Positions 10,847 through 25,604 of a DNA stretch of 64,000 nt are shown here, in pieces; position 1 is the stretch's first letter, and each line of letters starts with the position of its first letter. The DNA is taken from contig NZ_FUYN01000003.1 in assembly GCF_900168025.1 (NCBI RefSeq), positions 248,001-312,000 of the forward strand, written 5' to 3'. Position numbers and translations under genes: made by a program. A model generated the notes under the pieces. That model worked only from the letters and a program-made list of their open reading frames with translations, searched no databases and was not told the DNA's origin. This DNA is from Acetoanaerobium noterae (lineage in GTDB: Bacteria > Bacillota > Clostridia > Peptostreptococcales > Filifactoraceae).

Positions 10847-11548
10847 ATGCATAATGTCCAAAGAAAAATACTGGTTGTTGATGATGAAGTTAAAATAGTT
10901 GAGGTTGTTAAGTCATATTTAGAGAAAAACGGCTTTAATGTCATTGAGGCTTATACTGCAAAGGATGCTCTAGACAAATTTGAAAATGAAAATCCTAATC
11001 TTATCATACTTGATTTGATGCTTCCAGATATGAGTGGAGAGGAAATCTGCCAAGCTCTAAGAAAAAAATCAAGGGTTCCAATAATTATGCTTACTGCAAA
11101 AGTCGAAGAAGAGGATTTGCTAAAAGGCCTTAATATAGGAGCTGACGATTATGTAACAAAGCCCTTTAGCCCAAGACAGCTAGTTGCTAGAGTAGAAGCT
11201 GTATTAAGGCGCTCCTCTGATAATATAGCCCCTCTTGCAAATACTTTATCTTTTTACGATGATGAGCTTGCTATAGATGTCTTAAAATATGAGGTCAAAA
11301 AATATGGCGAAATTGTCAGTCTCACACCAAATGAATATAAGCTTCTTCTTACAATGGCAAAATATCCGGATAAAACCTTTACTAGAGATGAGCTCATAAC
11401 AATCAGCCTTGGCGAAAATTTTAATGGCTACGATAGAACTATAGATACTCATATAAAAAATTTAAGGCAAAAAATTGAGCCAGACCCGAAGCATCCTAAA
11501 TATATACTTACTATCCATGGAGTTGGATATAGGTTTGGAATTGAGTAG
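10847..11548 (+). CDS. OmpR-family response regulator
   Basis: 233 residues. The N-terminal receiver has the acidic pair in VVDDE, the phospho-acceptor Asp at about residue 56 in IILDLMLPD, and the switch Lys in VTKPFSP. The C-terminal winged-helix DNA-binding domain includes DTHIKNLRQKIEPDP and IHGVGYRFG. The ATG at 10847 follows GGAGG; a TTG at 10835 lies before that site and is rejected. It is cotranscribed with the sensor kinase that starts 15 bases later. Proximity to the copper genes invites a CusR-like role, but a terminator lies between. Confidence 0.93.
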   Translation: MHNVQRKILVVDDEVKIVEVVKSYLEKNGFNVIEAYTAKDALDKFENENPNLIILDLMLPDMSGEEICQALRKKSRVPIIMLTAKVEEEDLLKGLNIGADDYVTKPFSPRQLVARVEAVLRRSSDNIAPLANTLSFYDDELAIDVLKYEVKKYGEIVSLTPNEYKLLLTMAKYPDKTFTRDELITISLGENFNGYDRTIDTHIKNLRQKIEPDPKHPKYILTIHGVGYRFGIE

Positions 11549-11563
11549 AAAGGTGAGTCTATT

Positions 11564-12958
11564 ATGAAATATAGTTTCAGGACGAAATTATCGCTTTCTT
11601 ATATAGCAGTAGTTTTAGTATCCGTGCTTTTAATCAGTATTATGATGAATCAGCTTCTTGACAAACATTTTAGAGACTATATAATCCAAAATCAAGAGCT
11701 AAAAAATAAAGCTGTTGTAAGTCAGGTAAGTCAGCAGTACAAAGCTGGGGGAATATGGAATACTGAGGCTATTGAAAATATCTGTATAAATGCTCTAGAG
11801 CAAGGAATGATTATAACGGTAAAGGATGTATCTGGAAACACTATATGGGATGCAAGAGCTCATGACAACGCTCAGTGTGAGGAAATTTTATCTGATATGG
11901 CCGATAATATGCATAGCCGTTATCCACATTGGGATGGTAGCTATGTAGAAAATTCCTATCCGATAACCTCTGACTCAGGTGATATCGGAACAGTGACTAT
12001 AGGCTATTATGGTCCATATTATTTTAACGACAGTGACCTTGAGTTTATAAGCACTATAAATAGACTTCTCATGGGAGTAGGTGCATTTTCTTTGGTATTG
12101 TCCTTCTTAGTCGGCTCAATAATGGCTAAAAGGCTAAGCTCTCCAATATCTAGAGTAATAGATACTGCTCAGATGATTTCAAAAGGATATTTTAATGACA
12201 GAATAACTGAAGAGTCTTCGACTATAGAAACTGCCCAGCTAACTGAAACTATTAATAACCTTGCTGAAACCCTTGAGCATCAAGAGATTCTAAGAAAAAG
12301 GCTTACAGGAGATGTCGCCCATGAGTTAAGAACCCCTCTAGCTACTTTGCAAAGTCATATGGAGGCGATGATTGATGGAATATGGGAAGCTGATACGGAA
12401 AGACTGAAAAGCTGTCATGAGGAGATAATTAGAATTAATAGACTTGTAGGAGACTTAGAAAAACTAGCTCGATACGAAAGTGAAAATCTCATTCTGCACA
12501 AAACAAATTTTGATATCTCAAAGCTAATAAGTCAAATTATCAAAAATTTTGAAAATGATTTTGTTGCCAAGAATATAGAGCTTGATTTTGAGGCTAAAGA
12601 GGAAATGATTTTTGCTGATAAGGATAAAATCAGCCAAGTAATAGTAAATCTGCTCTCAAATGCTCACAAATACACACCCTCTGGTGGTGCTGTAGCTATA
12701 AGAATTATAAGTACAGCTGGCAAAACTGAAATCCATATAAAAGATACTGGAAATGGAATCTCTCCTGAGGATTTGCCTATGATTTTTGAACGCTTCTACC
12801 GTGCAGATAAATCTAGGAATAGATTAACAGGAGGAGCTGGAATCGGACTTACAATTACAAAATCAATAGTTGAAGCTCATAAGGGAAGTATACAGGTAAG
12901 CAGTATTGCTTCCAAGGGCTCAGAATTTATAGTAAAATTACCAAAGCAGGCGAGCTAA
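11564..12958 (+). CDS. Sensor histidine kinase
   Basis: 464 residues. A membrane helix at about 10-30, an extracytoplasmic sensor of about 130 residues, a second helix near 165-187, HAMP, HisKA with phospho-accepting His near residue 253 in AHELRTP, and a HATPase_c domain (N box NLLSNAHKY, G1 DTGNG, F box, G2 GGAGIGL). Forms an intact two-component pair with the preceding regulator. The sensor segment holds several His, Asp and Tyr residues but no recognisable copper motif, so the signal is unknown. Confidence 0.93.
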   Translation: MKYSFRTKLSLSYIAVVLVSVLLISIMMNQLLDKHFRDYIIQNQELKNKAVVSQVSQQYKAGGIWNTEAIENICINALEQGMIITVKDVSGNTIWDARAHDNAQCEEILSDMADNMHSRYPHWDGSYVENSYPITSDSGDIGTVTIGYYGPYYFNDSDLEFISTINRLLMGVGAFSLVLSFLVGSIMAKRLSSPISRVIDTAQMISKGYFNDRITEESSTIETAQLTETINNLAETLEHQEILRKRLTGDVAHELRTPLATLQSHMEAMIDGIWEADTERLKSCHEEIIRINRLVGDLEKLARYESENLILHKTNFDISKLISQIIKNFENDFVAKNIELDFEAKEEMIFADKDKISQVIVNLLSNAHKYTPSGGAVAIRIISTAGKTEIHIKDTGNGISPEDLPMIFERFYRADKSRNRLTGGAGIGLTITKSIVEAHKGSIQVSSIASKGSEFIVKLPKQAS

Positions 12959-12973
12959 AGCTCCCTGCTTTTT
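12943..12973 (+). terminator. Rho-independent terminator of the two-component operon
   Basis: Stem AAGCAGG-C-GAGC / GCTC-CCTGCTT with a TAAA loop and TTTTT tail. The kinase stop codon lies inside the loop, so the hairpin overlaps the end of the coding region. Confidence 0.88.
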
Positions 12974-12998
12974 CATTTTATAGGTATAATCATATAGT

Positions 12999-14345
12999 TT
13001 AGCCATTAAGCATTAGCTTAATATAATTTTTTGAAGCTTTCACTGCTCCAAAGCCTATTCTTAGCACATTCATAAGACCAAATTTTTTGAGCATTTTTGT
13101 ATTGCCATTTACAAATAAATTCACATACAGATAGGTTATCATAAGCTCATAATAGTATCTCCTGACACTTATTTTAGATGGCTTTATAATAAGCTGTCCA
13201 AAGCTCCATTTTTCATAATCTACAGCGCTAAATAGCAGTCTATCTTTATACTCTTCATATAAAGGTAGTCCTGGAAACGGCGTAAGTGGATTGATGGTTG
13301 TTATTTGAGGTCTTATTTTCTTAATATGGGCTCTAAAGTTTTTAAAATCATCTTTATCCCAATCAGGATGAGCCATAAATGAAGCCCATACATCTATATC
13401 CAGTTCATTTAGTATTATAGAGGCTTTAAAGTTTTCGCTAGAAGTAATTTTTTTATTATAGTTCATAAGCTCTTCATCCTTAAAGGTTTCATAACCTATG
13501 AGAATTGCCCTAAGTCCCAGTCTTACAAATTCCTTTAGTAAATCCTGGGTTTCTATTACTCCTTTTACTGAGCCGTAGATTATGTAATTCTTTTTTAGAT
13601 CAAGCTCCTTAATAATATCTAGAAAGCTAGAGAGCTTTTGTCTGCTTGATAAAAAATCGTTGTCTATGAACATTATTGTAGATTCTGTGATGGCATTTAG
13701 GTCAGCTATAGTTATGTCCCTATCTATCTGAATTTCTTTATATCCCTCTATCCTCCATCGGAGACAGAAATTGCATCTACTTTCACAGCCTAAGCCATAC
13801 TCCATTATAGCTGCAGGTCTATATCCAAAATAGGAATAGTAGGCTCTGTATTTCAAGGTACTGGCTCTGTTTGGGAGCATATATTCATTGTTTCCCTTTG
13901 GAAAGCTATCTTTGAATGAATTTTCTTTTTGGTACACTCCTTCTATATTGCTGTCGTTATTTAAAAACTTAATCAAATTATCTTTTGTAGTATAGTTAAA
14001 TACATAATCTATGCTAGGCTCAAAAAAACTCTCTGGACTAAGCAGAGCCTGAGTTCCTCCTACAAAAGTTATTATATTGCTATTACATGCCTTTATTTTA
14101 TTACTTAGCTCAATAACCTTCAGTACGTCTATGCAAAGACTCGTAATTCCTACTCTATCTGGCTCAAAATCTAGAATTTTTTCTTCTATAGAAAGCTTTT
14201 CAATCATCATATCAAAAATCTCTACAGTGTGGTTTTGCTCAAATACACTATAAATCATTTCTAAACCAAGGGGCTCGGAAAACATAAAGTTGCTTAAGGT
14301 TATTGCTTGTTTTATTCTAGGTGGTCTTACAAGTAAAATTTTCAT
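12999..14345 (-). CDS. Radical SAM protein with N-terminal cobalamin-binding-like domain (fourth of operon)
   Basis: 448 residues. The N-terminal 150 residues form a B12-binding-type Rossmann domain (MKILLVRPPR opening, VGITSLCIDV), without the DxHxxG base-off motif. The radical SAM cluster motif C-x3-C-x2-C is at C187, C191 and C194. The C-terminal 100 residues lie beyond the core barrel. The opening shares an 'EPLxLE' phrase with two other radical SAM genes of this operon, so these are paralogues. BchE/P-methylase-like relatives do methylations or cyclisations. Last gene of the operon; substrate unknown. Confidence 0.88.
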   Translation of the reverse strand: MKILLVRPPRIKQAITLSNFMFSEPLGLEMIYSVFEQNHTVEIFDMMIEKLSIEEKILDFEPDRVGITSLCIDVLKVIELSNKIKACNSNIITFVGGTQALLSPESFFEPSIDYVFNYTTKDNLIKFLNNDSNIEGVYQKENSFKDSFPKGNNEYMLPNRASTLKYRAYYSYFGYRPAAIMEYGLGCESRCNFCLRWRIEGYKEIQIDRDITIADLNAITESTIMFIDNDFLSSRQKLSSFLDIIKELDLKKNYIIYGSVKGVIETQDLLKEFVRLGLRAILIGYETFKDEELMNYNKKITSSENFKASIILNELDIDVWASFMAHPDWDKDDFKNFRAHIKKIRPQITTINPLTPFPGLPLYEEYKDRLLFSAVDYEKWSFGQLIIKPSKISVRRYYYELMITYLYVNLFVNGNTKMLKKFGLMNVLRIGFGAVKASKNYIKLMLNG

Positions 14346-14354
14346 AGGGCACTC

Positions 14355-15677
14355 CTAAAATATATTTGGGGTTATTCTTCTTTTTATCTGCTCTCTGTAG
14401 TAGAGATTTACAATGGTGTTAAACAGATATTTATGTGGCATTTTAAGCATTTCTCTTCTTAATATATTCCTTTTTATTATAGATTTAAAGGTAAAGAGGT
14501 TTTCATAAAGCTCCCAGTATACTGCTGTAAGCTCATCTGGTGTCATATTCTGGGGCTTATATACTGCACTTGTTCCGTCATAGGAATAGATGTCTTTATT
14601 TACTAGCCTTCCTGCCTTTTCTATCTGCTCAAAAAATCTTGTTCCAGGAAAAGGTGTGAGTATATAAAATCTAGGTACTGAAATTTTGTTCTTCTCTATA
14701 AAGTCCTTAGTTTTTCTTATAGACTCAAGAGTATCTCCTTCAGCTCCCACTACCATTTCAGTTGATACATCTATGCCATGCTTTCTTATGTTTTGGATTA
14801 GGTAATCATAGTCACTAGGTTTTGCCCAGCTTTTGTCCATTTTATCTAGACTCTCTTTAGTTATGCTCTCAAGTCCAAAGCTAAGAGTTTGGCAGCCACT
14901 TTTATAAAGCTTTTGGAGTAAGTCATTATCATGACCTATGGTAATCTCGCACTGACTCATCCAGGTTACATTTAGCTCTATAAAGGTATCTAGCAGTTTA
15001 TGAAGATAATCTCTATCAGAAAATATATTGTCATCAAGCAGCAGAATTTTTTTGAAGCCTAAATCTTTAATTTGCTTTATATCTCTTACTACCTCTTCTA
15101 GAGGCCTTTTTATATATCTCCCTTTGTAAAGGCAAGACACTGAACAAAAGCTACAAGAATTCGGACATCCTCTTCCTGCTTGAACTGGAAGAAAGTCTCC
15201 TATTTTTTTACCCTTTAGGAGGTCAAACCTTGGCATTGGAGTAGAAAAATATCCATTTGGAAGTGGTTTTTCATAGATTTCTTTTAACCTGCCACTGCAA
15301 AAATCAGAAAGTACCTCTTCCCATATCAGCTCTGCATCTCCTACTACCACACTATCCGAGTAGTTAGCGGCTTCTAGTGGCATTATGCTAGCCATATATC
15401 CCCCAAGTATCACTTTCTTTCCTTTTTTTCTAAATTCCTTGGCTATATCTATAGATCTAATCACCCCATGCCCCATAGTGCTGATTCCTATTAAGTCAGC
15501 ATCTGTATCAAAAGGGATGTCCTCTATGACCTCATATATCAGCTCCACCTCCCAGTCCTTAGGTGTAAGAGCTGCAAGCAGTGGCAGTGACAATCCAACA
15601 AAATAGAGTCTTGATTTTTTGACCACTGTTTTGTCTTTTTGATATGGGCTAGGTTGTATCAGTAATAGTTTTTTCAT
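14355..15677 (-). CDS. Cobalamin-type radical SAM protein, second subfamily (third of operon)
   Basis: 440 residues with a B12-binding-like domain (ADLIGISTMGHGV, VILGGYMASIMP) and radical SAM CxxxCxxC at C171, C175 and C178 in GCPNSCSFC. Unlike its neighbours it opens with the phrase SLPLLAALTP, seen in the HpnJ/HpnP-like group of B12-radical SAM proteins, so it belongs to a different branch. It sits 9 bases before the next gene and 1 base after the previous one, in a tightly packed operon. Reaction unknown; SAM-dependent methylation or C-C chemistry is plausible. Confidence 0.88.
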   Translation of the reverse strand: MKKLLLIQPSPYQKDKTVVKKSRLYFVGLSLPLLAALTPKDWEVELIYEVIEDIPFDTDADLIGISTMGHGVIRSIDIAKEFRKKGKKVILGGYMASIMPLEAANYSDSVVVGDAELIWEEVLSDFCSGRLKEIYEKPLPNGYFSTPMPRFDLLKGKKIGDFLPVQAGRGCPNSCSFCSVSCLYKGRYIKRPLEEVVRDIKQIKDLGFKKILLLDDNIFSDRDYLHKLLDTFIELNVTWMSQCEITIGHDNDLLQKLYKSGCQTLSFGLESITKESLDKMDKSWAKPSDYDYLIQNIRKHGIDVSTEMVVGAEGDTLESIRKTKDFIEKNKISVPRFYILTPFPGTRFFEQIEKAGRLVNKDIYSYDGTSAVYKPQNMTPDELTAVYWELYENLFTFKSIIKRNILRREMLKMPHKYLFNTIVNLYYREQIKRRITPNIF

Positions 15678-15678
15678 A

Positions 15679-17040
15679 TTAACCTCTTATTATCTTTGAT
15701 AAATACTGTAAGCTTACTCTTTGACTGCCTTTTAGCATTTTTAGATTTTCTTTAAGACCATATTTTTTGAGCAGTCTAATTGAATTTGCTGGTCTCATTA
15801 TGACTTTATAGTAGCTTATAAGCATTTGGCTGTAAAATTCTCTCACACTCAAATGCTGAGGTTTCAATATCACGTGAGCCATGTCAAACATTTCATAGCT
15901 TTCTCTTTTTACGAGTAGCTTTTTTTCATAATCCTTGAATATCTCCGTTCCTGGGATGGGAGTAAGAGGCTGCAAATTTACGAATGTGATTTTCATATCC
16001 TTTAGCCAGTTTGTAAGATTTCTAAAATCTTGCTTATTAAAATCCATAGGAAGAATCAAGGTTGCATAAAGCTCTATATCCAGCTCTCTTAGAATCTCAA
16101 TGCAGGCTTCGTTTATTTGGACAGTAGTTTTTTTGTTATAGCTATCTAAATCAGTTTTTCTTATGGATTCTATCCCTACTATAACTGCTCTTAGTCCCAC
16201 TTTTTTGAGCTCACTTATCAGCTCCTTGTTGTTTGCTATAAAATCAGCTCTTCCATACACTAGGTAGTTTTTCTCGATGTTATTTTCTTTTATCAGCGCT
16301 ATAAATTTCTTCAGCCTATCTTCATTGTAAAGAAAATCATCATCTACTATATATATTTCTTTTTCAGGTATTTTTGATATTTCAGCTACCACATCTTCTA
16401 TATCCCTAGCATAATATTTTCCAGAAGTTATTTCTTTGCAAAAACAAAAACTGCAATTATATGGGCATCCATATGAGGTCTTAATAAGAGCGCAGGGATT
16501 ATGAAACATATAGTAATAATCCTTTTTGTAGTTTTCTACTGACTTTCTATCAGGGTGCTTGTAGGAGTAATTATAGGGCTGATTTTCTATAGCTTTAATT
16601 CTTTCATCTATTATAGCTTTATCTTGATTTTTTACTGCTCCCTCAAGCACAGCATTAAAGCAAGCTATGCCATTTTTTCTAAATATAAAATCTATGCTTT
16701 CATCGAGAAAATCATCACCTACTACCTCAGCATGAACTCCTCCTACAGCTGTTTTTGTATTTGGATTATACAGCTTTACTTTCCTAGCCATCTGCTTTAT
16801 GGTTCTCACATGGGTTATATATCCTGTAAAGCCTACAAAATCTGGCTTCTCCTCTAGTAATATTTGTTCAAAGGTTTTTTTCTCTAAAATAAAATCGTAT
16901 ATTTTAACAGTTACTTCATCAGCTAAACCCTCTGGTACGTTGGATACTAGGTACTCCAGCTCCAACGGCTCGCAAATCATAACATGCTGAAGCCCTATTG
17001 TTTCTTTATCTGGTTTTGGCCTAATGAGTAGAGCCTTCAT
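15679..17040 (-). CDS. Radical SAM protein with cobalamin-binding-like domain (second of operon)
   Basis: 453 residues. N-terminal Rossmann domain with CEPLELEYL, GFTGYITHVRT and VGGVHAEV; cluster cysteines C192, C196 and C199 in GCPYNCSFC. It is closest within the operon to the protein at 17644-19071 (shared GCPYxCSFC, the IxDDxFL strand and the GIESIRKTDL region), which suggests duplication. It overlaps the methyltransferase gene by four bases (ATGA), so the two are translationally coupled. Confidence 0.88.
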   Translation of the reverse strand: MKALLIRPKPDKETIGLQHVMICEPLELEYLVSNVPEGLADEVTVKIYDFILEKKTFEQILLEEKPDFVGFTGYITHVRTIKQMARKVKLYNPNTKTAVGGVHAEVVGDDFLDESIDFIFRKNGIACFNAVLEGAVKNQDKAIIDERIKAIENQPYNYSYKHPDRKSVENYKKDYYYMFHNPCALIKTSYGCPYNCSFCFCKEITSGKYYARDIEDVVAEISKIPEKEIYIVDDDFLYNEDRLKKFIALIKENNIEKNYLVYGRADFIANNKELISELKKVGLRAVIVGIESIRKTDLDSYNKKTTVQINEACIEILRELDIELYATLILPMDFNKQDFRNLTNWLKDMKITFVNLQPLTPIPGTEIFKDYEKKLLVKRESYEMFDMAHVILKPQHLSVREFYSQMLISYYKVIMRPANSIRLLKKYGLKENLKMLKGSQRVSLQYLSKIIRG

Positions 17041-17654
17041 TTTTCCACCTTTCTAAGAGAATATACCGCAATTGTTGGCATATATGGTCTTAGCTTAATT
17101 ACTTCTCTTTTTTCTATGTCAAAATAATCCTTGATTAGCATTTTGAATTCCTTATCGCTAGGGTAAGATGCTGGCCCAGTACTTAGCTTTACAAACAAAA
17201 GTATGAGCCTATCAAGAAAGGTATTTCCACTTGCAAATGCAAAAATAGCTCTTCCTTCCTCTTTTAAAAGCTCATTGATTTGCTTTAGTATATCTCGTTT
17301 TGAATTATAGTATGGGAGAGAATGTGTACAAGTGATTATATTAAATCTAGTTTCTATTTTATCTAGACTGCTCACATCAAGCTTATAATGAGTCACCTTA
17401 GGATTTTTTAGCTTAGATACCTCTATCATTTTCTCAGAAAAATCTAAGCCATGCCTTTCGATATTATTAATATCTTGTAGCTCATAAAGTAGTTCCCCTA
17501 CTCCACAGCCTATATCCAAAAGTGAAGCCTCTTCTTTTATATAAAGCTCTTCTATAAGCTTTTTAACTTTATTTCTAGTTGGTCCTAGAGAATATTTCTG
17601 CACCCATAGCTTATGATAATGCTTTGCCCAAAAATCCCAAATTTTACTTTTCAT
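17037..17654 (-). CDS. Class I SAM-dependent methyltransferase in the radical SAM operon
   Basis: 205 residues. Motif I LLDIGCGVGE near residue 41, acidic loop HGLDFSE, and motif post-I/II SLPYYN and FAFASGN. Methyltransf_11/25 type. Start overlaps the upstream radical SAM gene by 11 bases and its own end overlaps the next, so it is embedded in the operon and probably acts on the same product, as an O-, N- or C-methylase. Substrate unknown. Confidence 0.85.
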   Translation of the reverse strand: MKSKIWDFWAKHYHKLWVQKYSLGPTRNKVKKLIEELYIKEEASLLDIGCGVGELLYELQDINNIERHGLDFSEKMIEVSKLKNPKVTHYKLDVSSLDKIETRFNIITCTHSLPYYNSKRDILKQINELLKEEGRAIFAFASGNTFLDRLILLFVKLSTGPASYPSDKEFKMLIKDYFDIEKREVIKLRPYMPTIAVYSLRKVEK

Positions 17655-19071
17655 AATTTCCTCTTATCATTTTTCTAATTCTCTTAGATTTTATTAACCT
17701 TAGATGACATAGGTAAAACAAAGTATAAAATAGCCACTTTGGTAGCTTCGATTTGAGCACCAAATGAAGAAAATCAAATTTTCTTGGATCAGTTTCTATA
17801 AGCTCATGCTTTCTTAATTCGTAATCTAAAGTTCCTTTTAACGGAGTCATTATAGAAATAGTGTAAAGGTCTAAATCTAGCTTTTTAATATATTTGTAAA
17901 GCCTTAAAAAATCTTTTATTTCATATGCAGGATCGACTATAAAAAGTGCTGTAAGCTCTATAGCTTCTTTTTTTAAGATGTTTACAGCTTTTTGATAAAT
18001 ATTTGCAGTCTGACCTTTATTATATTCGCTTAGCATACTTTCATCTTCTGATTCAAAGCCAACTATAACCTCATCTATCCCCCAGGATTTAAGTTCGCTC
18101 ATCAAGTCTTCGTTTTCAACTATAAAATCAGCTCTAAGATATATAATTAAGCTTTTATTTAGATACTCATTTTTTGCATTAACAATAAAATCAAGAGCAT
18201 CCTCTCTAGCTATAAAAAAGCTATCATCTATAACCCAGATATAGCTTGAGTCTATTTCCTTGATTTCACTTATAAGTCTTTTGTAATCAGGTTTAAGATA
18301 GATTCCATTGTTTAGAAGTCTGCAATAACAAAAACTACAGCTATATGGGCATCCATGGCTTGACTTTACTAGAGCTACCTGAGTCTTATCAATATATCTT
18401 GTCTGTGATTTTATGTCATTAAATACCAGTCTATCTGGAAAAATGTTTTCACTTTTTATCAATACGTCATCTTGCCCTAGTTGCCAAGAATCAGTCAGCT
18501 TATCGTAAATATCTACACCTTTTCGAAAATAATTGCTCTTAAATTCTTTATTATTTATATCTTTATTATTTATATCTTTATTATTTATATATTTATTATT
18601 TATATCTTTATTATTTATATCTTTATTATTTATATCTTTATTATTTATATCTTTATTATCTTCTTTTTCATAATCTATTTCTAAATCTATAGCTGTTTTT
18701 ATAAAGGTTCTAAATGTCTCTAAGCTTTGAGAAAAATATACGTAGTCAATCCCTTCAGTTCTAAATACTTCACGATTGAGCTGAGCATGGACTCCAGAGA
18801 CCATGATTTTTACAGTGGGATATTTATTCTTGTAGGCTTTAGCTTTGCTTATTATTAAATTTTCAGCTACGTTGTAGCCAGTTAAAATTACTAAATCCGG
18901 TATAGCTCCTTTAGGCTTATCTAGCTTGAATTTATCATCTACAATATAGGAGGTTATTTTCTCCTGCATTAATATAGCCTGGATATACATGAGCTCAAGC
19001 GGTTCAGTCACTATAGGCTCAAAGAATGAAAATATGGTTTTTTCTCTTACTTTTTCTAAAAAAACTATCAT
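17644..19071 (-). CDS. Radical SAM protein with cobalamin-binding-like domain and a 5-residue repeat linker (first of operon)
   Basis: 475 residues. N-terminal Rossmann domain (TEPLELMYI, LVILTGYNVAEN, MVSGVHAQL), then seven tandem [D/Y]INNK units at about 141-175, then the radical SAM domain with C241, C245 and C248 in GCPYSCSFC. The repeat lies exactly at the domain junction, where length change should be tolerated. Start overlaps the upstream gene by four bases (ATGA). Paralogue of the protein at 15679-17040. Reaction unknown. Confidence 0.87.
   Translation of the reverse strand: MIVFLEKVREKTIFSFFEPIVTEPLELMYIQAILMQEKITSYIVDDKFKLDKPKGAIPDLVILTGYNVAENLIISKAKAYKNKYPTVKIMVSGVHAQLNREVFRTEGIDYVYFSQSLETFRTFIKTAIDLEIDYEKEDNKDINNKDINNKDINNKDINNKYINNKDINNKDINNKEFKSNYFRKGVDIYDKLTDSWQLGQDDVLIKSENIFPDRLVFNDIKSQTRYIDKTQVALVKSSHGCPYSCSFCYCRLLNNGIYLKPDYKRLISEIKEIDSSYIWVIDDSFFIAREDALDFIVNAKNEYLNKSLIIYLRADFIVENEDLMSELKSWGIDEVIVGFESEDESMLSEYNKGQTANIYQKAVNILKKEAIELTALFIVDPAYEIKDFLRLYKYIKKLDLDLYTISIMTPLKGTLDYELRKHELIETDPRKFDFLHLVLKSKLPKWLFYTLFYLCHLRLIKSKRIRKMIRGNYEK
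18547..18651. repeat. Seven-copy 15-bp tandem repeat inside a radical SAM gene
   Basis: Unit TTATTATTTATATCT on the plus strand, seven copies, one with a single-base change (encoding Y instead of D). It keeps frame because the unit is a multiple of three and adds five residues per copy. A likely slipped-strand length-variable locus. Confidence 0.9.
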
Positions 19072-20009
19072 TGCTTCACCTTAAATACCCTGTGATTTTT
19101 TGAGTATCCCTTGTATGAAAAATATGGAGTAAGAATTTTTAATATACCTCTAATAGCTGGATTATTATGGTGAAGATATAGGTATTTAGGTATCTCTTTG
19201 CAGCCTATTTTGGATTTTGATTCTTCTGAAGTCTGCCCAAAATTAATACTAAAAACGCCTCTACTAATGCCTTGATTTACTATAAATAAAAGCATGTTGT
19301 AATAGATATCATAGGTTTTTACATCTTCTTCTTTAAATCCGCAAAAAATAAATAATAGCTGATTATTTCTTTCTAGTAGCTGCACAAACGCAAGTACTTC
19401 ATTTTCAGCGTTTCTAAACTCATACATTTCGCTGTCAAATTCCCTAAAAAATTCAATATGAAGAAGCTCTAGCTTATTATCAGAGCGCTTATATACATCC
19501 TCATAAAGCTTATAGTGATCTGAAGTGAAAGCTTCTGGCTCTAGTCTTGTTATTCTTAGGTCTTTTCCTTTTTCAATCGCTAGGTTTAGCCTTCTTCTAT
19601 AGCTACTTCTTAGAGAACTCATATAATCCTCAAAGGTATTGAACTTATTATATAACATAAAATTTGAAAGCGTTCTTCCTCTATTAGTAAAAGGTGTATC
19701 GCTGTTTAAAACAAGACTTAACCCACTTATGTTCTTTAATATCTTATCGAGATTAGCTTCATCTCCAAAAACAGAGCTCATTTCCATAGAAATAGGCATT
19801 GCTACTATTCTAACTGGGAGCTCTAGCTTTAAGCCTTTCTTGAAATTGAAAATATTTAGTTTATGCAAATATGTAACTGCCAGTGTTTTATCACAGCTAT
19901 AGTATTGTTGTCCACAACTATTCACTTTTTCCAAAAGTAATAATAATTCCTTAATATCTTCTTCTATTTCGCTTGATTTTACATCAGATATACTGGTGTA
20001 GATTTTCAT
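19068..20009 (-). CDS. GNAT/FemAB-type acyltransferase-like protein
   Basis: 313 residues. The middle (YMSSLRSSYRRRLNLAIEKG) resembles the Acetyltransf_6/BioF2-like group of FemAB-related proteins, where a Ser-Tyr-Arg-Arg-rich helix precedes the acyl-CoA or aminoacyl donor fold; the C-terminal half has LLFIFCGFKEE and INFGQTSEESKSKIGC. The start at 20009 follows GGAG and lies one base after the previous stop; an upstream in-frame ATG at 20072 would overlap that gene. Probably N-acylates a biosynthetic product of the operon. Donor and acceptor unknown. Confidence 0.72.
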   Translation of the reverse strand: MKIYTSISDVKSSEIEEDIKELLLLLEKVNSCGQQYYSCDKTLAVTYLHKLNIFNFKKGLKLELPVRIVAMPISMEMSSVFGDEANLDKILKNISGLSLVLNSDTPFTNRGRTLSNFMLYNKFNTFEDYMSSLRSSYRRRLNLAIEKGKDLRITRLEPEAFTSDHYKLYEDVYKRSDNKLELLHIEFFREFDSEMYEFRNAENEVLAFVQLLERNNQLLFIFCGFKEEDVKTYDIYYNMLLFIVNQGISRGVFSINFGQTSEESKSKIGCKEIPKYLYLHHNNPAIRGILKILTPYFSYKGYSKNHRVFKVKQ

Positions 20010-20010
20010 G

Positions 20011-21090
20011 CTAAAGCTCCTTAATATAGGCAACGTAATTTTTGCAAACTCCATCTGCCCATTTATAGCCAAAATTTCCCGACATTATATTTTCTTTAAG
20101 TACCCAGCCTGACTCAAAGGACTTATATCGCCCTTTCGTAAGGGTAAAGCAGTAGTCAAACAAAGCTAATATGGCTCCTTTTTTTTGCTCCTCTTCTATT
20201 ATGCCCATCTCAACAATTTTGAACTTATCAATTTTATGATTGAAGAGCTTATTATTAATTACAGTTTTTAATCCTACTGTCTCTTTGCTACTCATCAGCT
20301 GATGAAAGTCAGGATACCAAAGCATAAACCCAACCTCTATATTGTCTTTTAATACAAACAAAAGATTTTCTGGTCTTAATAGCATTTTGAAATCCTTAAA
20401 AAGCTCTAAATCCTCTTCTTCTACTCTTTTATAATAAAATGGATGATTCCTAAATGCATCGTTGTTAATTCTAGTATAGATTTTAGCTTCTCTTTCCATA
20501 TTTTTAAAATCAGCATGCCTAACTGAGTATTTACTTTTTAGCTTTTGCCTTAATTTATCGCTAATCAAAGTAAAATCAGCTTCCATATTTTTATGAAAAG
20601 TCACCATATCAATACCGCTAAACCCATAACTTTCAAAGTAATCGTGAATAAAAGGTTCATTATGTGCCATACCAAAGCTTTGGGGTTTTGAATACGAGTC
20701 CTTTAAATAGCCTAGCCCATAGTTGACATGTATATTTAAAGATGCGCAAATAAACTTAGTCTGCCATTTTTTTGATATTTCTTCAGCTTTTTCGTATACA
20801 AGATTGAATCCTTCTATACAATATTCTTTGGATTCAAAAAAACTCATTTGTAAATACTCTTGCATTCTAGATGCTTTTGCTAGTAAACAGCACATGACTA
20901 TCTCATCATTATTTTTTACAATAAGAGGCACGATTTCAATTGATTTACTCATCACAGATTGCTCAAATAAAATGCCCTTTAGCAGTCCTGAAAGAGAGTC
21001 TCTTCTAAGCTCATGATTATGGTACTGAGATATATAAAAATTTAGAAAATCCTTTTTTTCTTTTTTAGAATTTGCAATTATTAGCTCCAT
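20011..21090 (-). CDS. Uncharacterised protein, possibly GNAT-fold
   Basis: 359 residues. I do not recognise a precise family. The C-terminal third (LLFVLKDNIEVGFMLWYPD, then KIVEMGIIEEEQKKGAILALFDYC) has the strand-turn-helix look of a GNAT acetyl-CoA site, including an acidic EEEQKKG in the position of the usual R/Q-x-x-G-x-G/A loop. No signal peptide or membrane helix. Second gene of the operon, 11 bases after the exporter. The two successive acyltransferase-like proteins suggest two acyl or aminoacyl additions. Confidence 0.65.
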   Translation of the reverse strand: MELIIANSKKEKKDFLNFYISQYHNHELRRDSLSGLLKGILFEQSVMSKSIEIVPLIVKNNDEIVMCCLLAKASRMQEYLQMSFFESKEYCIEGFNLVYEKAEEISKKWQTKFICASLNIHVNYGLGYLKDSYSKPQSFGMAHNEPFIHDYFESYGFSGIDMVTFHKNMEADFTLISDKLRQKLKSKYSVRHADFKNMEREAKIYTRINNDAFRNHPFYYKRVEEEDLELFKDFKMLLRPENLLFVLKDNIEVGFMLWYPDFHQLMSSKETVGLKTVINNKLFNHKIDKFKIVEMGIIEEEQKKGAILALFDYCFTLTKGRYKSFESGWVLKENIMSGNFGYKWADGVCKNYVAYIKEL

Positions 21091-21101
21091 AATTTTCCTT
21101 T

Positions 21102-22157
21102 CTAATGCTGGTGTCTATGATGAACCTCTGGCGTATGTGAATGACTATGTGTTACTTCTTCATGTATATGCTCATGACTGTGCTCACCTATAAATTCTGG
21201 AGCATGGGTATGTGTGTGATGGTTATCATCATGCCTATGCTTGTGTTCATGAGTTTCTAAGGTATGAATATGGGCATGCTCATGGTCTTCGGTCACTGCA
21301 AAATAAGTTCCAATTAGCATGATAAATAGTGCTGTGAGAAAAGATGGAGTAATAGCTTCTTTTAACACTATCCAAGATATTAGCACTCCAATAAAAGGAG
21401 CGGCTGCGTAGTATGCACTTGTTCTTGCCGCGCCAAGCTCTCTTTGGGCTCTAATATACATAAGCAGACTAAGACCATAAGCAACAAATCCCAAAAGCAA
21501 AGCAATCAAAGCATATGAAATATCAATTTTTATATCCTTTGATAACCAAGCAATTAATAAAGCCCCAAAGCCCGAACCTAACCCCTTTATTACTACAATT
21601 TGTCCAGGGTCTTTAATTGAAAGCATTCTAGTGCAATTATTTTCAAGTCCCCAGCTCACACATGCAAGCAAAACAAAAACTGATCCTACAGAAAAAGTAA
21701 AGCTACTTATATCTTCAAAGGTCAGTACTATACTCGATAATGTAATAAAGAAAATAGCTGTCCACATTCTTTTTCCTACAGCTTCCTTAAAGATAAATAA
21801 TGCTATCATTGCAGTTGCAACTATTTCAAAATTATTTAATAAAGAAGCGTTTGATGATGTGGTTTTTGTAAGTCCTATCATCAGAAATATAGGAGCCGCA
21901 ATATCTAGGATTATCATACCTATAATATATGGGAGCTCCTTTTTTGTTAAGCTCGCTTCATAGCTTTGAGCTTTAGATATTTTTTTGATAATTTGAAGTG
22001 TAAGCATCCCAATTCCAGCTCCTAAATATAGCATGGACGCCATAATTGTTGGGCTTAGCTTTTCAAGCAATAGCTTTGATGCAGGAGAGCTAACTCCATA
22101 TAAAGATGCCGCCGCTATAGCCATCATAACGTATTTTGTATTTGTAGTTTGCTTCAT
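21102..22157 (-). CDS. EamA/DMT-family transporter with His-rich C-terminal tail
   Basis: 351 residues. Ten predicted membrane helices in two EamA repeats (first opening SLYGVSSPASKLLL, second near WGLENNCTRML), typical of the drug/metabolite transporter superfamily. The last 60 residues (about 292-351) are a hydrophilic tail with more than 20 histidines interleaved with Glu, Asp and Thr, which should bind Zn, Ni or Co. First gene of the radical SAM operon, so it may export the product; the tail suggests metal sensing or storage. Alternative: a permease unrelated to the biosynthetic genes. Confidence 0.85.
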   Translation of the reverse strand: MKQTTNTKYVMMAIAAASLYGVSSPASKLLLEKLSPTIMASMLYLGAGIGMLTLQIIKKISKAQSYEASLTKKELPYIIGMIILDIAAPIFLMIGLTKTTSSNASLLNNFEIVATAMIALFIFKEAVGKRMWTAIFFITLSSIVLTFEDISSFTFSVGSVFVLLACVSWGLENNCTRMLSIKDPGQIVVIKGLGSGFGALLIAWLSKDIKIDISYALIALLLGFVAYGLSLLMYIRAQRELGAARTSAYYAAAPFIGVLISWIVLKEAITPSFLTALFIMLIGTYFAVTEDHEHAHIHTLETHEHKHRHDDNHHTHTHAPEFIGEHSHEHIHEEVTHSHSHTPEVHHRHQH

Positions 22158-22218
22158 TATCCCTAACCCACCCTTATTTATATTTCTAAGATTGTTTTTT
22201 GTAGATTTATTATATCCT

Positions 22219-23301
22219 TTAAAACCATTTTCTAGCTTTGAAATATGTTATCATCCCAGAGGCTAGAGTTATGCAAAATATAGCAAAGTAAATAAAGGAT
22301 TTTGGTTCATTTAAGCCTGGCATATACTTAAAATTCATACCAAATACTCCTGCCAAAAATGATAAAGGAATAAAGATAGCTGAAAAAATAGTAAGTGTCA
22401 TCATAGCTCTGTTCATTCTCATGCTTACGTTTGACATCGAAACCTCATGAAGGCTATTGCTCATTTCTCTATAACCCATAATTGAATCTGATATTTGGCT
22501 GAGGTGGTCCTTTATATCTGAATAATAAGGTAACATATCCTGAGTATAAAAAGCACTATCCTCAGTTACAAATCTTCTCAAGGTATCTTGAAGTGGAGAA
22601 ATTGAATTGCTGAAATATAAAAGCTCTTTTCTAAGCCTATATAGTTCTTCTTTATTTGGGCTTCTTTCTTCTATAATTTGCATCTCAATTTCATTAAATC
22701 TAAGAGAAATATAATTTATAACAAGCATATATTCATCAACTATTGCATCGAGTATAGAATAAAATAGATAACTTGAATCCTCGAATCTGAGCTGACCTTT
22801 TTGACTTTCTAATCTACTTCTTATATGGTCAAATACATCTCCTGGCGTTTCTTGAAAAGTGATTACTAAATTATTTTTTACAATGACTGAAACCTGTTCA
22901 TGAATAATTTCCTCTTCATTTAGATATATCATTTTAAATATAGAAAACAAATAATCATTATGGTTTATTATTTTACTCCACTGTGAAACATGGACAATAT
23001 CTTCTAAATCCATATGATGGATATTTAGAGAACTACCAATCAGCTCTATTATCTTCTTATTGTGAAGCCCTATAATATTAATCCAAATAATTTCCTCTTC
23101 GAAATCGCTACCAGAAATTATTTTACTTATATTTTTAATATCTGCCTCGGCATCGATTTGAAATTTATCTTTGTTATATCTAATAACCTCTATTTTTATA
23201 TCTACATCTGAATAATCTCCTGAATAATCAATAGTTCCAGGAGGCGTTCCGATAGATTGCTTTTTCGTTCTTAATAAATCAAATGGGTCATGGATATTCA
23301 T
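22219..23301 (-). CDS. corA: CorA-type Mg2+/Co2+ transporter
   Basis: 360 residues. A large N-terminal cytoplasmic domain, a long helix, then two C-terminal membrane helices with the signature G-M-N between them (GVFGMNFKYMPG), which forms the pore entrance of the pentamer. The start at 23301 has CCTCCT (GGAGG on the coding strand) nine bases away; a longer frame up to 23364 is not supported. It ends 61 bases before the EamA gene, so readthrough into the radical SAM operon is possible. Mg2+ is the usual substrate, Co2+ possible. Confidence 0.93.
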   Translation of the reverse strand: MNIHDPFDLLRTKKQSIGTPPGTIDYSGDYSDVDIKIEVIRYNKDKFQIDAEADIKNISKIISGSDFEEEIIWINIIGLHNKKIIELIGSSLNIHHMDLEDIVHVSQWSKIINHNDYLFSIFKMIYLNEEEIIHEQVSVIVKNNLVITFQETPGDVFDHIRSRLESQKGQLRFEDSSYLFYSILDAIVDEYMLVINYISLRFNEIEMQIIEERSPNKEELYRLRKELLYFSNSISPLQDTLRRFVTEDSAFYTQDMLPYYSDIKDHLSQISDSIMGYREMSNSLHEVSMSNVSMRMNRAMMTLTIFSAIFIPLSFLAGVFGMNFKYMPGLNEPKSFIYFAIFCITLASGMITYFKARKWF

Positions 23302-23615
23302 GCTTTTAAACCTCCTGATTTTTGTAACAAATCTTATGCATAAATAGATTGCATTACTATTCAAATTTTATATTTTTTAATCTCAAATCTCAAAAAATCA
23401 TTTACTTATATTATACTCCAAAAAATGTATATTCATGATAATTTAATGTCACTCATTATGCTAATACCTAAACCTATTAAATCAATAAATCCTGTTCACG
23501 AATCTCGCTAAACTCTTTTTATTAAAAAAGCTCTAGCCAATTTTATTATAATTGAATAGAGCTTTTTATCGAGATTGTTATTTTACTGATTTATCACATT
23601 ATATTAAGATAAAAA
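23302..23615. other. Intergenic region holding the chemoreceptor terminator
   Basis: Apart from the ribosome binding site of corA and the hairpin at 23523-23570, this AT-rich spacer shows nothing I can name. A promoter for corA should be here. Confidence 0.5.
23523..23570 (-). terminator. Rho-independent terminator downstream of the chemoreceptor
   Basis: Arms AAAAAGCTCTA / TAGAGCTTTTT with an inner AATT/AATT pairing. The T-run on the minus strand fits termination of the gene at 23616-25604. Confidence 0.85.
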
Positions 23616-25604
23616 TCATATTTTAAACCTCAAAATAATTTGTTGAAGGTTTTCTGCTAGCTCTGCAAGCGACTCACTTGCACTGGATATTTCTTCTATA
23701 GATGCTGTTTGCTCTTCTATAGAGCCTGAGATTTCTTGAGTGGATGCAGAATTTTCTTCAGCCACAGCAGATAAATGTTCAAACGCTTCTACTATCACAT
23801 TTTTCATTATCTCCATTTCTCTACATGAAGAGTTCAGATTATCAATGCAGCTTTGAGCAATAACCATAAAATCTCCAATTTCTTCATATTTAACTTTACT
23901 TTTATCTACAACTTTAAACTGCTCTTTTGCAATTACTAAAACTTTTTCCACAGTATTTACAGCATCTTGCGCGTTACTTTGAAGCTCTTTTACCACACCA
24001 TCTATTGATTTCGTTGATAATGATGACTGCTCTGCCAATTTTCTAATTTCTTCAGCTACAACAGAAAATCCTTTCCCAGCTTCTCCTGCCCTTGCCGCTT
24101 CAATTGCAGCATTTAGAGCTAATAGGTTGGTTTGCTCAGCGATTGATGCTATAACATGGCTTGCTTCACCTATTTTTTCTGAGCTGTGATTAGTTTTAAT
24201 TATTACATCATGAATAGCCTTTATAGCTATACTGCTGTCATTAGTAATTTCTGTAAGAGATTGAATATCCTTTATCCCTTCAGTTACAGCTACATTAACT
24301 TTTTTAGAGGCAATGTTGAGGTCATCCATATATTTTATGTCAGTTTCTATTGTCTGACCTAAATTAACAGCATTATAAACTCCTTTTTCAGTACTTTGAG
24401 CTTGCTCTGATGCGCTAAGTGCAACCTGTTCTATAGCTTTTGCAATTTCTTCAGCCGCATAAGAAGATTGTGAAGCAGTTGCTGTCAGCTCTTCTGAAGC
24501 TGAGGTCAAGCTTTGAGATGATATACTCATTTTACCTAGTATTTCTCTTAAATTCAAAATTACTGTTTGCATAGACACTGCTAATATTCCTATTTCGTCT
24601 GATTTTTTTAATAGCTTATCCTCTATATCCTCAGTAATATCCAGCTCAGATATTTTTTTAGCGCAATTCTTTATATTTATTATAGGATCTGCAATATTCC
24701 TACCTATAAAGTAGGTGATAACTATACTTATTAACAATATTATAAAAGTAATTGTTAATATTGATTTTTGAATAGTTGGAACTGAAGAAAGAACTTCCTC
24801 TTCATCCGCAGTCAATATCAAAGTCCATGGTGTTCCTTCTATGGGAGTAAAGGCTGCATATAATTTTTTTCCATTGTAGTCATATGTAGATATTCCAATT
24901 GACTCTTTTGAAATCTTATCAAATAGATTTGCTACTGACTCAAAGCTTGAATCAGTTTTCGCAGATTCTATGGGATTGAATCCATTTATCACTAAGTTCA
25001 TGTCTGTATGTGCTACAACCGTACCCTCTTTATTTATGGCATAGGCATATCCCTCTTCACCATAATGCAGCTCATTAGTCAAAGCGCTAAGTCCTTTTCC
25101 ATCTCTCACTCCAACCAAAGCGCCAATCACTTGTCCATTTTTTTTGATAGGGGAGGCATATATTAAATTAAGTTCTTTAGTTGAGTTATCTAATAAAACA
25201 TCTGATATACTATCTTTTCCTTCAAGGGCTTTCAGAATAAAATCCATTTTTGAATAATCTTTAATGCTACCATCTGAAAAATAAGCTTTTCCATCTGGAT
25301 AAACTATTCCTAAGGCTAAGAAGTCAGTATCCTTTAAATGTTCTTTTATAAATACATTTTGAACTTCCCATGACATGCTTTGAATTTCTGGAAGTCCAGT
25401 TAGTGTATTTAATACTTTATGTTGAGCCAGTGCTCTGCTTTCAATTACATGTGCCCCTTCATGTAGTAAAAGCTTTAAACCATTTTCAGCTTCCTTAGAT
25501 ATAGCATTTGATGATTGAATAATCGATGATGCTCCTATTGCCATTGATGAAATCAAAATTAAAATAGAAAATAATGTAATTAATTTTGTTTTTATACTTT
25601 TCAT
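23616..25604 (-). CDS. Methyl-accepting chemotaxis protein
   Basis: 662 residues. Signal-anchor helix at about 5-28, an extracellular dCache-type sensor of about 245 residues (with [17 protein letters not shown] and [15 protein letters not shown] typical of Cache folds), a second helix, HAMP, and a long MCP signalling hairpin with the conserved tip [20 protein letters not shown]. Start at 25604 follows GGGAG; an extension to 25664 lacks a site. Signals to CheA/CheW encoded elsewhere. The dCache segment usually binds amino acids, carboxylates or purines; ligand unknown. Confidence 0.94.

Follow-up and report, generated by a model that had tools for sequence, protein, structure and literature searches.

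According to the accessible part of PMC11659888, cobalamin-dependent radical S-adenosylmethionine (SAM) enzymes are best known for methyl transfer. Named members such as the hopanoid C-3 methylase HpnR (TIGR04367) and BchE (TIGR02026) combine a B12-binding domain with a radical SAM domain. A second group of described enzymes, with the GNAT fold, draws on aminoacyl-tRNA and acts in antibiotic pathways (DhpH-C, PacB, VlmA and Orf11); their catalytic lysines include FemX Lys305 and DhpH-C Lys329 (both statements from the accessible part of PMC12945691). Genes resembling both groups stand together in Acetoanaerobium noterae, in a 64,000-nucleotide stretch of contig NZ_FUYN01000003.1 that is referred to here as the window. 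Eight minus-strand open reading frames (ORFs) lie at 22157-12999, separated by gaps or overlaps of at most 11 bases. Seven of them, in the order GNAT1-GNAT2-rS1-MT-rS2-rS3-rS4, are a conserved cassette found repeatedly among anaerobic Clostridia; the eighth, an EamA transporter, is excluded from it. The genes are listed below.

20011..21090, minus strand: GNAT1, predicted tandem GNAT-fold N-acyltransferase, core (359 residues; fold matches of an AlphaFold 2 (AF2) model)
19068..20009, minus strand: GNAT2, FemX/Sba18-like GNAT-fold transferase, probably aminoacyl-tRNA dependent, core (313 residues; fold matches of an AF2 model)
17644..19071, minus strand: rS1, B12-type radical SAM protein, putative tailoring (475 residues; Pfam Radical_SAM, 37.8 bits)
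17037..17654, minus strand: MT, class I SAM-dependent methyltransferase, putative tailoring (205 residues; Pfam Methyltransf_23/31/25)
15679..17040, minus strand: rS2, B12-binding radical SAM protein, core (453 residues; both Pfam domains above cut-off)
14355..15677, minus strand: rS3, B12-type radical SAM protein of a separate branch, core (440 residues; Pfam Radical_SAM above cut-off)
12999..14345, minus strand: rS4, B12-binding radical SAM protein, putative tailoring, last gene (448 residues; both Pfam domains above cut-off)
21102..22157, minus strand: EamA transporter with a His-rich C-terminal tail (Pfam EamA, 99.8 bits), local neighbour outside the conserved cassette

Each enzyme comes from a known superfamily, while the combination of genes and its conserved core appear to be undescribed. 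A sequence-only reading of this DNA had named no characterised pathway of such make-up, and none was matched in the families and literature searched. In that literature (most subscription papers were beyond reach) no description of the cassette was found, nor any report pairing a FemABX-type GNAT enzyme with radical SAM genes.

A conserved seven-gene unit

The distribution of the cassette was assessed in an order-level sample of 297 genomes. GNAT1 scored at least 158 bits in 24 of them; any match at an E-value of 0.001 was seen in 26, the two extra genomes scoring no more than 31 bits. GNAT2 (threshold E 1e-10) and rS3 (at least 422 bits) were also found in 24 genomes each, and the three sets are identical. 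For rS3, 42 of the 297 genomes have some match at E 1e-60, the best homologue beyond the 24 reaching 250 bits. The window's rS3 shares 57–83% identity with its counterparts in the other 23 cassettes of the order and no more than 37% with proteins encoded elsewhere; in the cassette locus L091 the figure drops to 46%. In 23 of the 24 genomes no more than 8.7 kb lies between the starts of GNAT1 and rS3; in the remaining one the two genes are on two contigs, with GNAT2 matches near the end of each. In a class-wide draw, the GNAT1 profile matched 61 of 391 genomes, only 13 of them with at least 250 bits. The distant GNAT1 homologues that were retrieved (n=12, L092-L103) are solitary, with no cassette genes nearby.

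Gene content was compared among loci recruited with GNAT1. The search yielded 34 named loci, many from metagenome-assembled genomes (MAGs), as well as further genomes, and 50 loci were tabulated. Fifteen of these end less than 700 bases from the edge of their stretch and were excluded from the counts, as was L051, in which the GNAT1 match starts at the contig end; 34 untruncated loci remain. Named hosts include Proteocatella, Soehngenia, Gudongella, Lutispora, Sedimentibacter, Desulfosporosinus, Tissierella, Alkaliphilus, Anaerovirgula, Acidaminobacter, Anoxynatronum, Youngiibacter and Candidatus Formimonas.

GNAT2, rS2 and rS3 are found with GNAT1 in all 34 untruncated loci. The other genes vary, with rS1 present in 32, MT in 30 and rS4 in 24 of the 34, and one locus (L086) consists of the bare core GNAT1-GNAT2-rS2-rS3. 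All seven genes occur, in whatever order, in 24 of the 34 loci and are shuffled in some; the order seen in the window is kept in 17, and in two more with MT fused to rS2. These two fusions belong to Acidaminobacter (L041, L048), and an rS2-rS3 fusion occurs in L062, from a genome of the window's family. The seven genes are linked as a single unit, in which a core of four is constant and fusions occur in three loci. A further radical SAM type is found in three loci, as four divergent proteins termed rS5 (one in L088, two in L090, one in L091). The pattern of constant and variable genes across the 34 loci suggests a division of labour in which the scaffold is made by rS2, rS3 and both GNATs and is decorated by rS1, rS4 and MT.

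The locus was also compared with that of A. noterae DSL2, whose record carries the same eight genes in order at 96–97% nucleotide identity. The ratio of nonsynonymous to synonymous substitution rates (dN/dS) between the two is 0.07–0.25 for the eight genes, with no internal stop codon; for the CorA-like gene next to them it is 0.18. Each of the eight is intact, and the seven cassette genes show purifying selection.

Several points of the sequence-only reading hold up here. The eight ORFs are all present with the tight spacing described (less than 15 bases), the neighbourhood check that it proposed shows the seven-gene set recurring between differing flanks, and its view of a single biosynthetic pathway with methyl and acyl transfer is supported by the identical genome sets, the constant core and the fusions. 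The operon it drew needs trimming; seven genes belong to the conserved unit, and the exporter at 21102-22157 lies outside it.

At the individual junctions, EamA and GNAT1 are separated by 11 bases, GNAT1 and GNAT2 by 1, rS2 and rS3 by 1 and rS3 and rS4 by 9. GNAT2 overlaps rS1 by 4 bases, rS1 overlaps MT by 11 and MT overlaps rS2 by 4. The GNAT1-GNAT2 figure takes the GNAT2 start as the ATG at 20009, which homologues favour over the TTG at 20072. Promoter and terminator scans gave signals no better than those of shuffled sequence, and Rfam gave no match within 11500-24000.

Predicted chemistry of the cassette

Pfam and NCBIfam searches of the eight proteins returned EamA, one protein without a credible family, a weak Acetyltransf_6 match, four radical SAM proteins and a class I methyltransferase. 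Among the NCBIfam matches listed (the best 25 for MT, rS2 and rS3), none of the window proteins passed a specific cut-off. We infer the reaction type of each enzyme from its sequence and, for the two GNATs, from structural models.

The Radical_SAM domain is above the Pfam cut-off in all four radical SAM proteins, and a CxxxCxxC motif is present in 160 of 160 such proteins from the cassettes (those shorter than 300 residues or scoring 100 bits or less were left out). A DxHxxG motif lies within the first 160 residues in only 1 of the 160. All four had been called cobalamin-type by the sequence-only reading; the radical SAM part of that call stands throughout, whereas the B12-binding domain exceeds its cut-off (32.1 bits) in rS2 and rS4 alone. 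Its division into three paralogues with an EPLxLE opening and one protein of another branch is confirmed. rS1, rS2 and rS4 share 24–32% identity, and an EP[LI]x[LM] opening is found in 41 of 44 rS1, 44 of 44 rS2, 22 of 27 rS4 and 0 of 41 rS3 sequences. A tree of the cassette proteins resolves four radical SAM clades, support for the rS1 assignment being weak in 12 divergent loci (0.18–0.93). In rS3, three more cysteines (182, 243 and 262) are kept in at least 97% of full-length members.

Among the matches listed, the named family closest to rS1, rS2 and rS4 is HpnR, which aligns over nearly the full length of rS2 and rS4. The scores (172.7 bits for rS2, 145.9 for rS4 and 90.0 for rS1) are far from its cut-off of 650. 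The squalene-hopene cyclase N-domain PF13249 had no match in the genome, whereas a B. subtilis control was matched. Hopanoid methylation was rejected as a family assignment on these low scores and the missing PF13249 match. For rS3, the best named matches among those listed are the P-methyltransferase PhpK/bcpD (99 bits) and HpnJ (86 bits), again far from their cut-offs (600 and 577.6) and aligned mainly over the radical SAM core. C-methylation is probably the reaction of the B12 radical SAM enzymes.

A further B12-type radical SAM gene of the window's genome (G000:C6:84913-86115; L125 8772-10118) encodes a protein with 36% identity to rS3. Its best named match is HpnJ (107 bits), and a gene that looks GNAT-like by eye is close to it.

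From the window protein alone, GNAT1 has no credible Pfam family; Acetyltransf_1 is matched at E 0.1 or better by 24 of 31 members (best 1.4e-5). The AF2 model of GNAT1 (predicted local distance difference test, pLDDT, 92) matches MAB_4324 (Z-score 23.4), mycothiol synthase (21.4) and glucosamine N-acetyltransferase (21.2). GNAT N-acyltransferases bind acyl-coenzyme A (acyl-CoA) with a loop of the form Q/R-x-x-G-x-G/A. Of 31 GNAT1 members, 19 have Q and 7 have R at position 302, and all 31 have G305. The GNAT1 model matches mycothiol synthase (MshD) and other tandem GNAT N-acetyltransferases over the whole length, and GNAT1 can be likened on this basis to CoA-dependent enzymes of that type. 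It differs from them in its low identity (9–13%) and in a cassette that has no glycosyltransferase or Cys-ligase partner.

For GNAT2, the AF2 model (pLDDT 91) matches best two peptide synthases that depend on aminoacyl-tRNA, Sba18 and Sbb17 (Z 18.2 and 18.1, root-mean-square deviation 3.2 over 245 residues), followed by FemX (16.7) and MprF/A-PGS (about 16). The double-GNAT fold is shared with FemX and Sba18/Sbb17, at an identity of 8–13%. At E 0.1, Acetyltransf_6 is matched by 23 of 32 members and FemAB_like (PF04339) by 14 of 32 (best 7.1e-5); PF02388 (FemAB) is absent among the families matched. Q259, T260 and K265 are each present in 32 of 32 members, and Lys265, shortly past a conserved FGQT stretch, is near the place expected for the catalytic lysine. 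The two GNATs show no mutual relation by hhalign, and profile searches of PDB sequences with either gave nothing credible. Both had been described as acyltransferase-like; that description suits GNAT1, whereas GNAT2 is better read, on the strength of its model, as an aminoacyl-tRNA-dependent amide ligase.

With barely moderate confidence, the cassette is read as a self-contained pathway for a small amine-derived metabolite that would be aminoacylated from tRNA, N-acylated and modified several times by B12 radical SAM enzymes, outside the logic of nonribosomal peptide synthetases (NRPS), polyketide synthases (PKS) or ribosomally synthesized and post-translationally modified peptides (RiPPs). 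rS3 and rS2 would carry out the core radical chemistry on a primary-metabolite scaffold, most likely by transferring a methyl group from methylcobalamin to an unactivated carbon. GNAT2 would form an amide with an amino acid drawn from aminoacyl-tRNA, and GNAT1 would cap an amine with the acyl group of an acyl-CoA. rS1, rS4 and MT may add further methyl or related groups that vary with lineage. The Pfam families of the seven proteins include no carrier, adenylation or ketosynthase domain, in agreement with the earlier statement that the cassette has no NRPS, PKS or RiPP precursor.

Several observations weigh against this reading. Since both GNAT models also match N-myristoyltransferases (Z about 15 for GNAT1 and 13–14 for GNAT2, with the acetyltransferase VipF at 14.7 for the latter), the GNAT fold does not prove the use of CoA or tRNA. 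The last position of the GNAT1 loop is V or I in 31 of 31 members, where G or A is usual. The correspondence of GNAT2 Lys265 to FemX Lys305 was placed by eye, and the hhalign alignment (probability 86, 142 columns) stops just before it. The B12-binding domain falls below the Pfam cut-off in rS1 (19.9 bits) and rS3 (30.3 bits), and HpnR and BchE, the named families closest to rS1, rS2 and rS4, are lipid or tetrapyrrole enzymes. Every locus was recruited through GNAT1, with no independent rS2 search, and gene presence was scored at the locus only. Finally, no substrate-forming gene is constant, and the scaffold is therefore a guess.

Serial B12 radical SAM enzymes perform chemistry that is hard for synthetic chemists, and many of their products are unknown. 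The cassette is suited to product discovery, having a clean boundary, a four-gene core and natural variants that lack single tailoring genes; an intact copy is present in a cultured close relative, A. noterae DSL2. If GNAT2 is what its model suggests, a GNAT-fold tRNA-dependent ligase would be paired here with B12 radical chemistry.

Within rS1, NNKDI units follow one another in a row, encoded by a 15-bp tandem repeat (18545-18659, 7.7 copies). The DSL2 protein is 21 residues shorter, with a gap at the site of the repeat, and the Proteocatella protein is 42 residues shorter overall. The repeat looks young and variable.

Parallel clusters and competing products

Searches with rS3 revealed other loci of the order that encode four radical SAM proteins 30–36% identical to rS3 together with a GH3-family ligase (L120 4736-13662, L121 6188-14981 and L122 4956-13636). 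Each also encodes a protein of 230-239 residues and one of 356-375 residues, the latter GNAT-like by eye. No Pfam match was found for these two proteins in the copies scanned (L120 and L121), and they have no detectable relation to GNAT1 or GNAT2. A GH3 gene with five radical SAM genes is carried by the Citrobacter portucalensis plasmid NZ_CP134684.1 (IncFIB/IncFII; L132 3392-14778), along with an annotated N-acetyltransferase, a PAP2 phosphatase and a fatty acid desaturase. A PLSDB search with one of the plasmid's radical SAM proteins gave no second plasmid record at E 1e-80. The GH3 clusters resemble the cassette in having a series of B12-type radical SAM genes and an enzyme that forms amides; the plasmid cluster also has the annotated N-acetyltransferase. 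They differ in having a GH3 adenylating ligase where the cassette has GNAT2. The PAP2 phosphatase and desaturase belong to the plasmid cluster, so a lipid or acyl-amide product is possible for the whole group.

More tentatively, these loci may represent a new class of natural-product pathway outside NRPS, PKS and RiPP logic. Serial B12 radical SAM enzymes would rebuild the carbon skeleton of an amine, a GNAT-fold aminoacyl-tRNA ligase and a GNAT acylase would build amides around it, and the GH3 clusters would be a second branch, the products being C-methylated acyl amides or aminolipids.

The main rival to the small amine-derived metabolite is a membrane aminolipid, which is judged unlikely. 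The radical SAM enzymes would act on acyl or isoprenoid chains, methylating or joining them, GNAT1 would N-acylate and GNAT2 would aminoacylate the head group, and the product would remain in the membrane. HpnR as the closest NCBIfam family of three radical SAM proteins would fit such a product, as would the match of the GNAT2 model to the lipid aminoacylases MprF and A-PGS, a cassette without an exporter, and the phosphatase and desaturase genes of the Citrobacter plasmid. The similarity to HpnR is nevertheless far under its cut-off in a genome without a cyclase N-domain match, the best GNAT2 fold matches work on a soluble antibiotic precursor, and the flanks show no recurring acyl carrier, acyltransferase or isoprenoid gene.

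A rather improbable alternative is that the radical SAM enzymes serially modify a macromolecule or cofactor (a protein, tRNA or corrinoid) instead of a free metabolite. This would be in keeping with the absence of an exporter, regulator or precursor from the cassette, and related B12 radical SAM families do include protein methylases such as MJ_0865. A patchy spread (24 of 297 genomes) and a variable tailoring set would, however, be unusual for a core macromolecule, and two amide-type transferases would be superfluous.

It is very improbable that the enzymes belong to a RiPP pathway with its short precursor gene at another place in the genome. RiPP pathways do include B12 radical SAM enzymes, and ApyD and rSAM_ocin_1 score weakly here. 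The seven proteins, however, include no leader peptidase or transporter family, and the window genes abut or overlap. The sequence-only reading had suggested looking for a short precursor gene in relatives, and both cassette ends were screened for one. Among 712 small ORFs in 104 end flanks of 520 bases, gaps inside the relatives' cassettes being outside the screen, none was common to more than three loci. A precursor at 22.1-22.3 kb was rejected on this result; the window has about 60 bases between EamA and the CorA-like gene.

A local joining of unrelated genes, which does hold for the EamA exporter, has next to no probability for the seven, being refuted by the identical 24-genome sets, the core in 34 of 34 loci and the fusions; chance grouping is likewise excluded because the gene set recurs across many genomes with differing flanks and the eight genes are intact at the dN/dS ratios given above.

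Neighbouring genes and movement of the cassette

No exporter, regulator or precursor is common to the cassette loci. Among the flanks of the 34 named loci, where families were named by eye, none occurs in more than seven; the widest is that of ABC-type ATPases (7/34), and sensor kinases flank four. A gene of the beta-keto-acid-cleavage type lies near the cassette in four (L022, L023, L038 and L049) and an aminotransferase in three (L022, L023 and L038), both being amino-acid-fermentation types. In A. pronyense (L038) the former is 226 bases upstream of the cassette.

The EamA exporter, with which a small secreted or membrane compound had been proposed, was dropped as a part of the pathway, as it is not conserved beside the cassette, and secretion of the product is not supported either. 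Close relatives (E 1e-20) were detected in 3 of the family's 11 genomes, one being the window's; the other two carry them and the cassette on separate contigs. Among the records examined, EamA adjoins the cassette beyond the window only in the near-identical A. noterae locus. In L030 a different-looking EamA gene follows the cassette immediately downstream, and L029 has another near its cassette, on the opposite strand; both are read as chance. The tail of the window's protein is long and His-rich, as in some metal-handling proteins.

An anti-phage defence system was considered but is not favoured; the PADLOC matches (PADLOC-DB of 2023) are weak, reaching 45 bits for PDC-M51A and, with MT, 48.5 bits for mad2.

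The simplest reading of the relationships among cassettes is that they have probably moved horizontally, because the GNAT1 identities and the radical SAM tree conflict with genus membership. GNAT1 of the window is 72% identical to that of Proteocatella, another genus, and 42% identical to that of A. pronyense, of its own genus. In the tree, the window's rS2 and rS3 cluster with Soehngenia and Gudongella, not with A. pronyense, in a wider group that includes Tissierella, Sedimentibacter and Desulfosporosinus.

Single loci contain additional genes. An opposite-strand ORF of 667 residues between GNAT2 and rS1 in A. pronyense (L038 12084-14354) is probably an insertion into the cassette. Reverse-transcriptase genes are found in two related genomes, adjoining the cassette in one (L087 7935-9152) and inside it in the other (L088 13850-15196); the latter matches Pfam RVT_1, and the former is similar in appearance. 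In an Alkaliphilus MAG (L044 17114-20968; also L105), a gene combining AMP-ligase, acyl carrier protein (ACP) and ketosynthase (KS) parts begins about 360 bases past rS3, in the usual place of rS4, and is followed by two ORFs of more than 2,800 residues that are NRPS/PKS-like in appearance. A pyridoxal phosphate (PLP) decarboxylase gene of the ornithine/diaminopimelate (DAP) type overlaps the start of the GNAT1 ORF in L091 (8823-9980), which is a hint of an amine scaffold. A 2.63-Mb A. noterae record with the cassette (NZ_CP154629.1), deposited as plasmid pTPELB2 with four annotated features, is probably a mislabelled chromosome.

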